Virus record (IMG/VR): IMGVR_UViG_3300013099_000081
Span: 1-25,409 of that record
Reading direction: 5' to 3' (one strand)
DNA from: a virus
DNA length: 25,409 nucleotides
The notes under the pieces were generated by a model that saw nothing but the letters and a program-made list of their open reading frames with translations, did no database searches and had not been told where the DNA came from. A program made the position numbers and the translations under genes. Numbering within the stretch: the stretch's first letter is position 1; each line of letters starts with the position of its first letter. Below are positions 13,518-22,590 of this stretch, piece after piece.

Positions 13518-13727
13518 ATGAAAGTAAAGTTTGTATTAGCTAGTCAATCTGCAATAAATGAGATTGAATCTCATATTAGGGTGTGGGCAAATGAGTATGA
13601 TCTACTGGAAACCTTCCCATCTAATCTGGTAGGTGAATCAATATTAGAATGGGAACTAAATAAGCGTGGGCTTACATCCCATATTAATCGTGCAACATAT
13701 ACAAACCAATTGACATCTAAATCATGA
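13518..13727 (+). CDS. Hypothetical small protein
   Basis: 69 residues (MKVKFVLASQSAINEIESHIRVWANEYDLL...). First gene behind the promoter at 13450 and overlapping the RNA ligase start by four bases, so it is likely co-expressed with the ligase. No family recognised. Confidence 0.6.
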   Translation: MKVKFVLASQSAINEIESHIRVWANEYDLLETFPSNLVGESILEWELNKRGLTSHINRATYTNQLTSKS

Positions 13728-14650
13728 ATAAAATTCAATTAACACCAGAGCATATGCAGAGTTATGTACAAGATAACCCTACATTAGTTACGTGTAAGAC
13801 TCAACTTAATGGACTTAAAGTACTGAAGTACCATAATCGGGTTTTTTATAAGAATCTATGGACACCCGAATTAATAGAATGTCGCGGTACAGTGATTGAT
13901 GATGAATATAATATTATTCAGCGTCCATTCACTAAGATATTTAATTTACATGAGCGTGATACTAAAATCCATCGTGATACTCTTGTAACCGCCACTACTA
14001 AAGTTAATGGGTTTATGGGTGCCGTTACATTATATCATGGTAAGCCGCTGGTATCGACTACTGGGAGCCTTGACAGTGAATTTGCAGATATGGCATATGA
14101 TATGCTATCTAAAACCAATGCATTTGAACTAGTACAAGGAACCCCGGATGTTACTTGGATTTATGAAATTGTTCATCCAAGTGATCCACATATTGTACCA
14201 GAAACGATTGGGGTCCATTTACTAGGATGCCGCCGCGCCGGATGGAATGTTAGCCAACATTATATGGCTGAATCTAAGTTAGATGTAATTGGTGATCAAT
14301 ATGATCTAATGCGTCCTGAGTGGTTTCGTATACCATTTGGAATGTTGTTGCAGCATAATAAGACTGTGACCCATGAGGGGTTTGTGTGCTGGGATGATAA
14401 TGGTTACGAATTGAAGTTGAAATCACCGCAATATCTGGTAACGAAATTTCTTGCCCGGATACGTGATACTAAGTTCATGAATATTTTAGAAAATAAACCT
14501 GAGCTACTAAAGGAACGGGTCGATGAAGAGTTTTACCCATTGATTGATCATATTATGGATATGGGTGAATCCTTTGCTGAGTTAAAGGAACAATCTCGAA
14601 TTGGTCTTATTTCACACTACATTGAAACGGAGTTAACCGATGTCCGATAA
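13724..14650 (+). CDS. rnlA: RNA ligase, T4 Rnl1 (RnlA) type
   Basis: 308 residues. Rnl1 ligases seal 5'-phosphate and 3'-OH RNA ends through an adenylylated lysine. Motif I is TKVNGF with the nucleophile K93. Upstream, ECRGTVID and RPFTKIFNLHE match the conserved elements T4 Rnl1 has before motif I. WIYEIVHPSDPHIV carries the motif IIIa-type Glu (E148). EGFVCW is motif IV (E218), and LKLKSPQY is motif V (K231, K233). In T4, Rnl1 with Pnk repairs tRNA-Lys cut by the host PrrC nuclease. This phage also encodes a P-loop polynucleotide-kinase-like protein (22204) and a tRNA-Lys-like RNA hairpin (7566). Confidence 0.88.
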   Translation: MNKIQLTPEHMQSYVQDNPTLVTCKTQLNGLKVLKYHNRVFYKNLWTPELIECRGTVIDDEYNIIQRPFTKIFNLHERDTKIHRDTLVTATTKVNGFMGAVTLYHGKPLVSTTGSLDSEFADMAYDMLSKTNAFELVQGTPDVTWIYEIVHPSDPHIVPETIGVHLLGCRRAGWNVSQHYMAESKLDVIGDQYDLMRPEWFRIPFGMLLQHNKTVTHEGFVCWDDNGYELKLKSPQYLVTKFLARIRDTKFMNILENKPELLKERVDEEFYPLIDHIMDMGESFAELKEQSRIGLISHYIETELTDVR

Positions 14651-14870
14651 AACTCATATAATGATTCAAGGTCAGATTACTGTCACGAAAAACATTCGAT
14701 ATGATAATTTGTGGTCAGTTGATTGCGCGTATTACAGTACAACCGGTGCTGGTGTGCTTAATATCTCATACACTAATGAATCATTGATGGTTGCAATGAA
14801 TGAGTTTAATGAACATTTCTTTCAGCGTGTGATTGATTTTGAGTCTGCATTTACAGAATCGATGTCATGA
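14640..14870 (+). CDS. Hypothetical small protein
   Basis: 76 residues (MSDKTHIMIQGQITVTKNIRYDNLWSVDCAYYSTTGAGVL...). Overlaps the ligase by 11 bases and has a GGAG site inside the ligase gene. Predicted beta-rich N-terminus and helical C-terminus. Function unknown. Confidence 0.6.
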   Translation: MSDKTHIMIQGQITVTKNIRYDNLWSVDCAYYSTTGAGVLNISYTNESLMVAMNEFNEHFFQRVIDFESAFTESMS

Positions 14871-14983
14871 CATACCCGGTTGAATTTGAAATGTGGTGGA
14901 ATAGCCATCATAAATTATTACAGGAACCGATTATGAAGGATGTTGCGTTTATAATCTGGACCGCCGCACGGGATTGGGTTTAA
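14867..14983 (+). CDS. Very small protein, 38 residues
   Basis: MTYPVEFEMWWNSHHKLLQE... is rich in Trp and helical in appearance. ATG overlaps the previous stop (ATGA), and the stop TAA shares its last base with the next ATG (TAATG). The perfect fit between neighbours is the main support for it being real. Confidence 0.55.
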   Translation: MTYPVEFEMWWNSHHKLLQEPIMKDVAFIIWTAARDWV

Positions 14984-15279
14984 TGGAAACTGAAGAATAT
15001 CAAAATAAGATGAGGAAACTGAAAGAGGATTTTGATATTCAGGAAACGAAGTTAGCCCGTGAGTATTCATTATCGAAAAATACTATAAAGGTGGGTGATA
15101 TCATCGAAGACCACATTGGTCATATTATGGTTGAAGTGGTTCAGTTTACTAAACACTCCACATTATTGAGTACGTTACCACAATGTGTCTATAGTGGTGC
15201 CGCACTCACTAAACAATTAAAACAACGAAAAAATGGTGAACAATATCGAACCATTTATCAAACTAACTTAAAGAAGTGA
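14983..15279 (+). CDS. Hypothetical protein with N-terminal coiled coil
   Basis: 98 residues from ATG 14983; a longer frame from TTG 14974 is less likely because the ATG forms the TAATG junction. Residues 1-30 are a charged helix (EEYQNKMRKLKEDFDIQETKLAREYSL), followed by a small beta domain (IKVGDIIEDHIGHIMVEVVQF) that resembles short phage proteins of unknown role. Confidence 0.65.
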   Translation: METEEYQNKMRKLKEDFDIQETKLAREYSLSKNTIKVGDIIEDHIGHIMVEVVQFTKHSTLLSTLPQCVYSGAALTKQLKQRKNGEQYRTIYQTNLKK

Positions 15280-15282
15280 AAT

Positions 15283-15861
15283 ATGAATAATCAAGATGTA
15301 TGGGTAACTTCAGATACCCATTTTTTCCATAAAAATATTCTGAAATATAACCCGGATAGTCGCCAGTTTGCGGATATCCATGAAATGAATGAAACGATAA
15401 TCGAACGATGGAATTCCTGCGTGAAGCCCGGTGATATGATTTATCATTTAGGTGACTTTGGGTTTGCAAATCCTAATAAATTAGAATCAGTGATGAAACG
15501 TCTAAATGGTCAGATATATTATATTACTGGTAATCATGATCATGCTCTACGCAATAAGCACCTTTCTAAGTACTTTGTGTGGCAACGTGAGTATACTGAA
15601 ATTAAGGTAGATAATCGTAAGATTTGCTTATTCCATTATCCAATAACAGAGTGGAATGGTGCCCACCATGGATCATTACACTTCCATGGTCATTTACATT
15701 CTAACCGGGTGGTGGGTCGATCTATGGATGTTGGGTGCGATAGTAACGACTGCTATCCCCATAATGTCCGTGATTTAATAAACCGGTTGGAACAAAAGCC
15801 AATCTTTTCTGAGTACCATGAAGTGTGTGATACCGAAAAATCAATGGGGAGTAAAACATGA
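15283..15861 (+). CDS. Calcineurin-like metallophosphoesterase
   Basis: 192 residues. All motifs of the binuclear metallophosphoesterase fold are present in order: SDTHFFH (D11, H13), GDMIYHLGDFG (D58), GNHDH (N84, H85), FHYP (H118) and HGHLH (H137, H139). The family hydrolyses phosphoesters such as cyclic nucleotides, nucleotides or nucleic-acid ends. Here the substrate is unknown. It lies two genes after the RNA ligase, so processing of RNA 2',3'-cyclic phosphate ends is one possibility, not shown. Confidence 0.85.
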   Translation: MNNQDVWVTSDTHFFHKNILKYNPDSRQFADIHEMNETIIERWNSCVKPGDMIYHLGDFGFANPNKLESVMKRLNGQIYYITGNHDHALRNKHLSKYFVWQREYTEIKVDNRKICLFHYPITEWNGAHHGSLHFHGHLHSNRVVGRSMDVGCDSNDCYPHNVRDLINRLEQKPIFSEYHEVCDTEKSMGSKT

Positions 15862-21724: not shown

Positions 21725-21728
21725 TTAT

Positions 21729-21944
21729 ATGCGTAATGTAACAAAAGAATTACCTGATACATTATATCGGATATATGATTTAGACTTCGAACGATATTGG
21801 GCTAATGATCATGGGAAGTCCGTATGGAATAATTCGGGACATGCTATTAATTCATGGAATTTTTGGCATGGCGTTAAATTCTCCAGTCAGAAGCATTTCG
21901 TGATTCGTGAATTTCAGTCAAAAGGTTGGAAATTAATCGAATAA
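21729..21944 (+). CDS. Hypothetical small protein
   Basis: 71 residues from ATG 21729, the first ATG after the helicase stop and preceded by GGGGAG; the frame extends upstream only inside the helicase gene. Rich in Trp and aromatic residues (DLDFERYWANDHGKSVWNNSGHAINSWNFWHGVKF). No family recognised. Confidence 0.6.
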   Translation: MRNVTKELPDTLYRIYDLDFERYWANDHGKSVWNNSGHAINSWNFWHGVKFSSQKHFVIREFQSKGWKLIE

Positions 21945-22000
21945 GGACTATTAACAAATTACCTAAATAATTGAATAAATAAAATCAATAGGGTAGAATA

Positions 22001-22189
22001 ATGATCAAGTTGTATCGCAAGGCTATTGGCGGGACATGGCTGAAAGTTAAATCAGGTGATAACCTTCAGGAATATTGGATACGTCCATCAAATCCAAATT
22101 CAACGCAAGTATTAAAGAGTAGTCAAGTTATAGAAACTGAGTGTCATGGAAGTTGTTTATTTCGGACACAGGATTTAACACACTATTAA
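22001..22189 (+). CDS. Hypothetical small protein
   Basis: 62 residues (MIKLYRKAIGGTWLKVKSGDNLQEYWIRPSNPNS...). Basic, with GGGT upstream. The 56 bases before it show no promoter or hairpin. Function unknown. Confidence 0.5.
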   Translation: MIKLYRKAIGGTWLKVKSGDNLQEYWIRPSNPNSTQVLKSSQVIETECHGSCLFRTQDLTHY

Positions 22190-22203
22190 AATTAGGTTAT
22201 ATT

Positions 22204-22590
22204 ATGAAAAATATCTTTCTTTTCCGTGGGTTACCCGGTTCAGGGAAAACAACCGCTGCTGAAGAATTATGTGATGAAGTGGTTTCAGCCGATGATTACT
22301 TTATGGATGACTTGGGTAATTATAATTGGAACCCCAAATACATTAAGAAAGCCCATGAAGATTGCCAGCGTCGTGCTGAGGAACTAATGAAGCGGTCAAT
22401 CAATCTAGCTGTTGCTAATACATTCACACGCAAACGGGAAATGAAACATTATATTGATCTTGCTGAAACTTACGGGTATACCGTGTTTACATTGGTTGTA
22501 GAAAACCGTCATGGGGGTATTAATACTCATAATGTTCCAGATGAAGCAATTTCTAAAATGCGTGATCGATTTGATGTGGAGTTAGGTTAA
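22204..22590 (+). CDS. P-loop kinase, polynucleotide-kinase/N4BP2-like
   Basis: 128 residues from ATG 22204. FLFRGLPGSGKTTAAEEL is a Walker A P-loop (K15, T16); VSADDYFMDDLGNYNWNPKYIKKAHEDCQRRAEELMKRS and ANTFTRKREMKHYIDLAETYGYTVFTLV follow the AAA33/N4BP2-like kinase family related to T4 Pnk. VENRHGGINTHNVPDEAISKMRDRF carries the Arg lid and the end of the fold. It is a single domain, with no phosphatase part as in T4 Pnk. A 5'-OH RNA or DNA kinase role would pair with the Rnl1-type ligase, but the family also contains kinases of unknown substrate. Confidence 0.8.
   Translation: MKNIFLFRGLPGSGKTTAAEELCDEVVSADDYFMDDLGNYNWNPKYIKKAHEDCQRRAEELMKRSINLAVANTFTRKREMKHYIDLAETYGYTVFTLVVENRHGGINTHNVPDEAISKMRDRFDVELG

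Follow-up and report, generated by a model that had tools for sequence, protein, structure and literature searches.

The virus record IMGVR_UViG_3300013099_000081, analysed here over its full 25,409 bases (the window), carries on one strand genes for an RNA ligase of the Rnl1 family, a calcineurin-like metallophosphoesterase (MPE) and a small P-loop kinase (Table 1). Upstream of these lie an array of five Y-RNA-like modules, one of which contains an anticodon-arm mimic of tRNA-Lys, and a gene for the RNA-binding protein Ro60. The original prediction for this DNA, made from the sequence alone, was that the three enzymes form an RNA-repair set and that, together with the mimic and the Ro60-like protein, they provide a layered answer to anticodon-nuclease defence. 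Comparison with other phages supports the first of these proposals strongly; the second stays conjectural, its support coming mainly from one syntenic relative.

Table 1. Features of the window, repair genes and their neighbours first (ORF, open reading frame; aa, amino acids)
Feature	Position	Strand	Basis and remarks
Rnl1-family RNA ligase (sealing enzyme), 308 aa	13724..14650	+	PF09511, phrog_562, invariant motifs, AlphaFold model
Calcineurin-like MPE, 192 aa, probable 3'-end phosphatase / cyclic phosphodiesterase	15283..15861	+	PF12850, phrog_547, di-metal motifs
Polynucleotide-kinase-fold P-loop kinase, 128 aa, probable 5'-OH RNA kinase	22204..22590	+	AAA_33, phrog_2071/phrog_505, model
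Small ORF overlapping the 3' end of the ligase gene	14640..14870	+	ORF list, profile searches; without convincing family
Small ORF, 101 aa, directly 5' of the MPE gene	14974..15279	+	ORF list
Sigma-70-like promoter, TTTACA-16-TATAAT	6919..6946	+	11/12, just 5' of the array; consensus match only, such sites no more frequent in the region than in shuffled sequence
Five Y-RNA-like modules	6963..7595	+	6963-7019, 7135-7180, 7311-7374, 7385-7465, 7542-7595
tRNA-Lys(UUU) anticodon-arm mimic, TTTGA-CTTTTAA-TCAAA (UUUGA-CUUUUAA-UCAAA)	7566..7582	+	inside module 5
Phage Ro60 (TROVE/vWA) RNA-binding protein	7621..9084	+	phrog_850

The ligase scored 38.9 bits against PF09511 (RNA_lig_T4_1), above the curated cut-off of 28.3, and matched phrog_562 (1e-50), whose PHROG label is "RNA ligase and tail fiber protein attachment catalyst". 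Its set of nucleotidyl-transferase motifs (I, III, IV and V) is complete. Residues R54-G55, K93-x-N95-G96 (motif I), E148, E218-G219 (motif IV) and K231-x-K233 (motif V) showed no variation among 46 homologues, which bears out the initial assignment of a ligase with all Rnl1 motifs. Against TIGR02308, the T4 RnlA equivalog model, the score was 26.9 bits, below the cut-off of 242; judged by these profiles, the enzyme is a member of the Rnl1 family and not a T4 RnlA equivalog. Its AlphaFold model (predicted local distance difference test, pLDDT, 95.3) aligned with T4 Rnl1 over residues 5-246 (Z score 24), the alignment stopping at residue 243-246, and with the fungal tRNA ligase Trl1 over the whole length (residues 5-308, Z 22). 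In the model, the C-terminal part looks more like Trl1 than like T4 Rnl1.

The MPE scored 37 bits against PF12850 (cut-off 27). Its di-metal site is complete (DxH, GD, GNH, H, GHxH), and all of these motifs are retained among its homologues. A phosphoesterase does follow the ligase, as had been predicted, with two small ORFs between them. We considered and rejected the identification of this protein with the phosphatase domain of Pnkp, as hhalign showed no relation to the MPE of the Pnkp-like fused phage protein described below, which also belongs to a different Pfam family.

The kinase gene begins with an ATG and lies 6.3 kb downstream of the MPE gene on the same strand. Its product matched AAA_33 (7e-14), phrog_2071 (2.8e-40) and phrog_505, "polynucleotide kinase" (1e-9). 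The structures closest to its model (pLDDT 89.7) were the kinase of Clostridium thermocellum Pnkp, CthPnkp (Z 14.7 over 127 residues, 2.6 A), followed by T4 Pnk (Z 13.8) and by PSTK, which acts on tRNA(Sec) (Z 13.6). PFKFB sugar kinases also aligned with the model (Z about 11-11.5), and the fold alone is therefore no proof of polynucleotide specificity. The P-loop residue K15 and the general base D30 were invariant in 49 sequences. No C-terminal HAD phosphatase domain was found in the 128 residues, which gave AAA_33-type profile matches only; by contrast, an HAD_PNKP domain is present in Streptomyces phage Stanimal. The predicted Pnk-like P-loop kinase stands as to fold and catalytic residues; lacking the phosphatase domain and having F33 in place of R38, it is not a T4-type Pnk. 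The step that this domain performs in T4 Pnk probably falls to the MPE here.

To examine the neighbourhoods of such ligases, viral-contig loci with 10-kb flanks were fetched with the ligase alignment, irrespective of neighbouring genes (n = 80); single-protein scans of viral contigs gave almost nothing, and alignment queries were required. The kinase was present within 10 kb in 73 of these 80 loci and the MPE in 61, compared with 3/80 each in loci fetched with Ro60. After removal of near-identical ligases, 45 non-redundant loci were left, with the kinase in 41, the MPE in 38 and both in 36. Kinase and ligase were on the same strand in 40 of the 41 and less than 1 kb apart in 33. None of the ligase, MPE, kinase and Ro60 proteins was found in 43 random viral stretches (402,582 bases). 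Isolate records with the ligase and the kinase, respectively, numbered 195 and 194 for Escherichia, 175 and 173 for Pseudomonas, 36 and 36 for Klebsiella, and 23 and 23 for both Campylobacter and Acinetobacter.

The linkage is tight in several isolates. The three genes abut, overlap or stand close together in Aeromonas phage phiA009, Vibrio phages Ceto and 184E37-2, Acinetobacter phage phi1_092033 and Salmonella phage PVP-SE1, and MPE, ligase and kinase lie side by side in Pseudomonas phage Pyxpy02. In Staphylococcus phage S-CoN_Ph9 a single protein of 766 amino acids comprises an AAA_33 kinase, then a metallophosphoesterase and then Rnl1; its front part is recognised by the NCBI bacterial Pnkp model, and hhalign shows homology of the kinase and ligase domains with the window proteins (probability 98). 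As its MPE domain is of another family, the fusion supports the combination of activities and not orthology of the MPE. Furthermore, where loci had kinase and MPE without Rnl1, a PF09414 plus PHA02142 OB-fold RNA ligase was found instead in 10 of 10 tested. The ligase family is thus swapped while kinase and MPE are retained, which indicates that these two go with RNA ligases in general. In 55 of 81 kinase loci the flank contained a ligase of one or the other family.

Taken together, the conserved cassette, the polynucleotide-kinase and Rnl1 folds, the S-CoN_Ph9 fusion and the swapping of ligase families strongly support the predicted RNA-repair set. We consider it likely, with a probability of roughly 0.8, that the trio is a phage cassette for RNA end-healing and sealing, a variant of the T4 Pnk/Rnl1 and bacterial Pnkp routes. 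In some isolates of the comparison set (L005, L007, L008 and L013), genes for Prs and NAMPT/nicotinate phosphoribosyltransferase, which serve rescue of nicotinamide adenine dinucleotide, lie near the repair genes, some with macro-domain or Sir2 genes; neighbours of this kind fit a counter-defence setting.

We infer the chemistry of each enzyme, RNA and in particular tRNA as the substrate, and host defence as the trigger. An endoribonuclease, most likely an anticodon nuclease of host defence, would cut its target and leave a 2',3'-cyclic or 3' phosphate and a 5'-OH. The MPE would clear the 3' phosphate, the small kinase would phosphorylate the 5'-OH with a nucleoside triphosphate, and the Rnl1-type ligase, carrying adenosine monophosphate on K93, would join the ends. 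This is the most likely course, and it would follow the classical scheme of healing and then sealing known from T4 and Pnkp, with the steps divided here among separate proteins. The case for tRNA-Lys as the substrate is an unproven analogy with T4.

Upstream of the repair genes, the Ro60 protein matched phrog_850 over its full length (4e-152, residues 1-482), confirming the predicted Ro60-like protein, and is 39-40% identical to the mycobacteriophage "Ro-like RNA binding protein". Directly before it, the modules share the plan stem-CAGCAA (or CTGCAA)-effector-stem', with C(A/T)GCAA just inside the 5' arm of the closing stem. Like modules were found beside Ro60/TROVE genes of phages of Bacillus (PJN02), Listeria, Staphylococcus, Enterococcus and Mycobacterium, of Felix-O1-like phages and on many viral contigs. 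In the 20 nearest loci there were 59 modules in 50 kb (the 2.5 kb upstream of each Ro60 gene) and 87 in the 319 kb elsewhere. Exactly three modules precede the Ro60 gene of Listeria phage WIL-1, and for Listeria phage CKA15 it has been suggested that three short regions with very high transcription, located within 2 kb upstream of the Rsr homologue, are Y RNAs (PMC12282133). Rfam yielded no family for the array, and we dismissed a match to Dictyostelium class I RNA (E 0.65) as chance. Since the folding z-scores were mostly unremarkable, the array rests on comparative evidence and not on folding energy. Judged by sequence, the modules would be small RNAs adjoining a Ro60 gene, with ends that pair into a common stem, as in Y RNAs, and we read the array as putative phage Y RNAs that would be bound by Ro60. 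Work cited in PMC7790460 and PMC12282133 is reported there to have established Y RNAs as tRNA mimics and complexes of Rsr with PNPase.

Under a strict grammar for anticodon arms, 8 were observed against 0.19 expected from shuffled module interiors. The tRNA-Lys mimic is therefore supported as a sequence feature, and it belongs to a class of such arms. Lys arms occur in the window, in L231 and in PJN02 (read by eye in the last), and Asn, Thr, Ser, Met, Ile, Glu, Gly and Tyr arms in other arrays. The mimicked tRNA varies among related phages, and anticodon loops with U36-A37 are favoured. Upstream of Ro60 in L177, L184, L197, L199, L200, L201 and L204, several arms carry anticodon-like loops, among them CAUUUAA, CGUUUAA and CCUCUAA, in which position 33 is not U; such loops could represent variants to which nucleases respond differently.

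In the arrays of PJN02, L017, L047 and Lewan, there is a module in which a D-arm comes after a T-arm; a T-arm/D-arm tRNA-like domain of the YrlA type was found in none of the five modules of the window. The modules in question lie at 1791-1917 in PJN02 (L014), 4533-4654 in L309 and 5810-5934 in L310, and upstream of Ro60 in L017 and L047. We take them to have the look of a circularly permuted tRNA, as in bacterial YrlA RNAs. Two further Ro60 neighbourhoods were noted. In WIL-1 (L306), the Ro60 gene with its three modules (6350-7561) is followed by genes annotated as tRNA splicing ligase and NADAR protein, which recalls the bacterial rsr-yrl-rtcBA operon. In Enterococcus phage VRE9_1 (L308), a phosphoesterase of the window MPE family (phrog_547, 5211-5753) lies 0.7 kb downstream of a Ro60 gene, amid tRNA genes.

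Whether the array and Ro60 belong with the repair trio was assessed by co-occurrence, counted over records of 60 kb or more. Ro60 was present in 9 of 42 Rnl1-bearing records, and Rnl1 in 5 of 38 Ro60-bearing records. Ro60 occurred in 11/59 Rnl1-positive and 1/15 kinase-only records, a difference that is not significant against so small a control (Fisher p = 0.44); a 14-mer control scan yielded too few large records for a base rate of Ro60 and Rnl1. Among the Escherichia isolates listed, those with Ro60 are about 85-89 kb in size (one examined is a Felixounavirus) and those with Rnl1 about 136-152 kb. Phages L005-L010 have ligase and kinase and no Ro60 gene. On the other side, the syntenic relative L017, at 31-54% protein identity, has array, Ro60, Rnl1 and MPE in the order of the window, with an Asn arm where the window has its Lys arm. 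In Bacillus phage PJN02 a Lys arm and Ro60 occur along with Rnl1 and a polynucleotide kinase, and S-CoN_Ph9 likewise combines Ro60 with Rnl1. The proposed link of decoy and repair is thus supported mainly by synteny in L017 and weakened by co-occurrence that is only occasional. The combination of Ro60 and Rnl1 recurs and is not obligatory. Ro60 and the array probably serve the same general end as the trio, keeping tRNAs usable or diverting tRNA-directed nucleases, as an independent module found together with the trio in some phages only.

Several observations weigh against the trio as a single cassette. Within the window the kinase sits 7.5 kb from the ligase. The MPE is commoner than the ligase (1,372 and 758 isolate records, respectively), and it does not belong to the family of the MPE domain in the Pnkp-like fusion of S-CoN_Ph9 (hhalign probability 1.4). 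At the R38 position of T4 Pnk the kinase has F33, and its lid also differs. Furthermore, 26 of the 81 kinase loci had no RNA ligase in the flank examined, and neither PF09511 nor PF09414 was found in several whole records that carry the kinase. One alternative is that these are three separate housekeeping genes, for a gp63-type tail-fibre attachment ligase, a nucleotide or DNA 5'-kinase and an MPE that hydrolyses signal nucleotides. The PHROG tail-fibre label would suit this, as would the presence of the MPE in many phages without Rnl1 and of the kinase sometimes without any ligase. It does not account for the tight linkage, the fusion into one protein or the exchange of one ligase family for another beside a retained kinase and MPE, and we regard it as quite improbable. 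A second possibility concerns the substrate only and is compatible with a repair cassette: the trio may mend RNAs other than tRNA-Lys, such as tRNAs cut by RloC, Cas13a, PARIS or toxins, or phage mRNA. The C-terminal part of the ligase aligns with fungal Trl1 and not with the C-terminal domain of T4 Rnl1, so that T4 specificity cannot be assumed, and ligase and kinase occur together in phages without Ro60 (L005-L010). The precedent of tRNA-Lys repair in T4 (Amitsur et al. 1987, as cited in PMC12409363) speaks for tRNA-Lys itself, and we put the chance of other substrates at about even.

With regard to the array, the anticodon arms and tRNA-like modules could be ordinary Y-RNA effector domains for RNA quality control by Ro60, for example in gating an exonuclease or recruiting tRNA-modifying enzymes, and have nothing to do with nuclease defence. 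All of the isolate groups tested have modules next to their Ro60 genes, and both the established tRNA mimicry and Rsr-PNPase complexes of Y RNAs and the short CKA15 transcripts before the Rsr gene agree with such a role. It leaves unexplained why tRNA identity changes between relatives and why U36-A37 is preferred, and we rate its chances as a little short of even. The layered programme would have the Lys-arm module act as a decoy held by Ro60, while the trio repairs tRNA-Lys that is cut anyway, the two having co-evolved. All parts are found in one phage here, L017 keeps the order array-Ro60-Rnl1-MPE, PJN02 has the combination described above, and Lys(UUU), Asn(GUU) and Thr(UGU) arms correspond to the main targets of AriB (PMC12409363). 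However, the co-occurrence is weak, a Salmonella nuclease did not cut YrlA, and AriB requires contacts beyond the anticodon arm (PMC12409363), so a bare arm may not bind. Gly, Glu and Tyr arms, which are outside the AriB target list, are copied elsewhere. We therefore view this programme as rather unlikely. It could be speculated that Ro60-bound Y-RNA modules display the bare anticodon arms of tRNAs cut by host anticodon nucleases (Lys, Asn, Thr and others), swapped between relatives like cartridges and here accompanied by a three-enzyme tRNA repair cassette; we rate this combined picture as rather unlikely.

Elsewhere in the window, a family-B-like DNA polymerase reading is split over the ORFs at 3-626 and 1682-2776, with three small genes and no obvious homing endonuclease between them. 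One of these small genes, for a nucleotidyltransferase (604-1221, phrog_1614), was considered as an RlaP-type repair partner and dropped, as it is unrelated to the nucleotidyltransferase near the PJN02 Rnl1 and had no homologue in the fetched loci. The gap before the gene at 23370 contains, at 23093-23319, 34-nucleotide direct repeats in three copies and a perfect 21-nucleotide inverted repeat.

About 600 sequenced phages have the Rnl1-kinase pair, annotated under names such as "tail fiber attachment catalyst" and "ATPase" and in many cases accompanied by a "phosphoesterase" gene. If the three are read as a single RNA-repair cassette, vague labels give way to a counter-defence pathway that can be tested and whose phosphatase is not one used by T4. 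Exchangeable anticodon arms in the neighbouring arrays, in turn, would offer a direct way to test, with PrrC, RloC and PARIS, what Ro60 and its Y RNAs do in phages.

Compared with known systems, the window shares with the tRNA-Lys repair of T4 Pnk and Rnl1 a ligase of the Rnl1 family with all motifs and a kinase of the polynucleotide kinase fold. It differs in that the kinase lacks both the HAD phosphatase and R38, a separate, linked MPE is present, and the C-terminus of the ligase is shorter and, in the model comparison, did not align with that of T4. Bacterial Pnkp, a kinase-MPE-ligase protein that works with Hen1, has the same three classes of activity, and CthPnkp is the structure closest to the window kinase; unlike Pnkp, the genes here are separate, the MPE is of another family and the ligase is Rnl1-like. 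Fungal Trl1 (ligase-kinase-cyclic phosphodiesterase) resembles the window in the full-length alignment of the ligase model (Z 22) and in the Trl1-type kinases among the kinase matches, whereas the window proteins are separate and include an MPE in place of a 2H-type cyclic phosphodiesterase.

For jumbo phages, section 3.4.9 of Iyer et al. 2021 (PMC7824862) already counts among phage RNA-repair functions Rnl1 or Rnl2 and PNK, now and then a phosphatase of the calcineurin-like type, and TROVE paired with a tRNA-like partner. The phosphatase there is mostly HAD, and the MPE-Rnl1-small-kinase cassette, the ligase swap and the anticodon-arm arrays do not appear in the text consulted. The bacterial rsr-yrlBA-rtcBA operon and phage Y RNAs (PMC7790460, PMC12282133) likewise have a Ro60 homologue adjoining Y RNAs with tRNA-like domains; in contrast, the window has a tandem array with interchangeable bare anticodon arms, and its RNA ligase is Rnl1 and not RtcB. 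An earlier description of the cassette or of the Y-RNA motif may exist; as far as the literature compared here allows, the close linkage of MPE, Rnl1 and small kinase in one cassette, the interchange of ligase families and the arrays with exchangeable arms are new.

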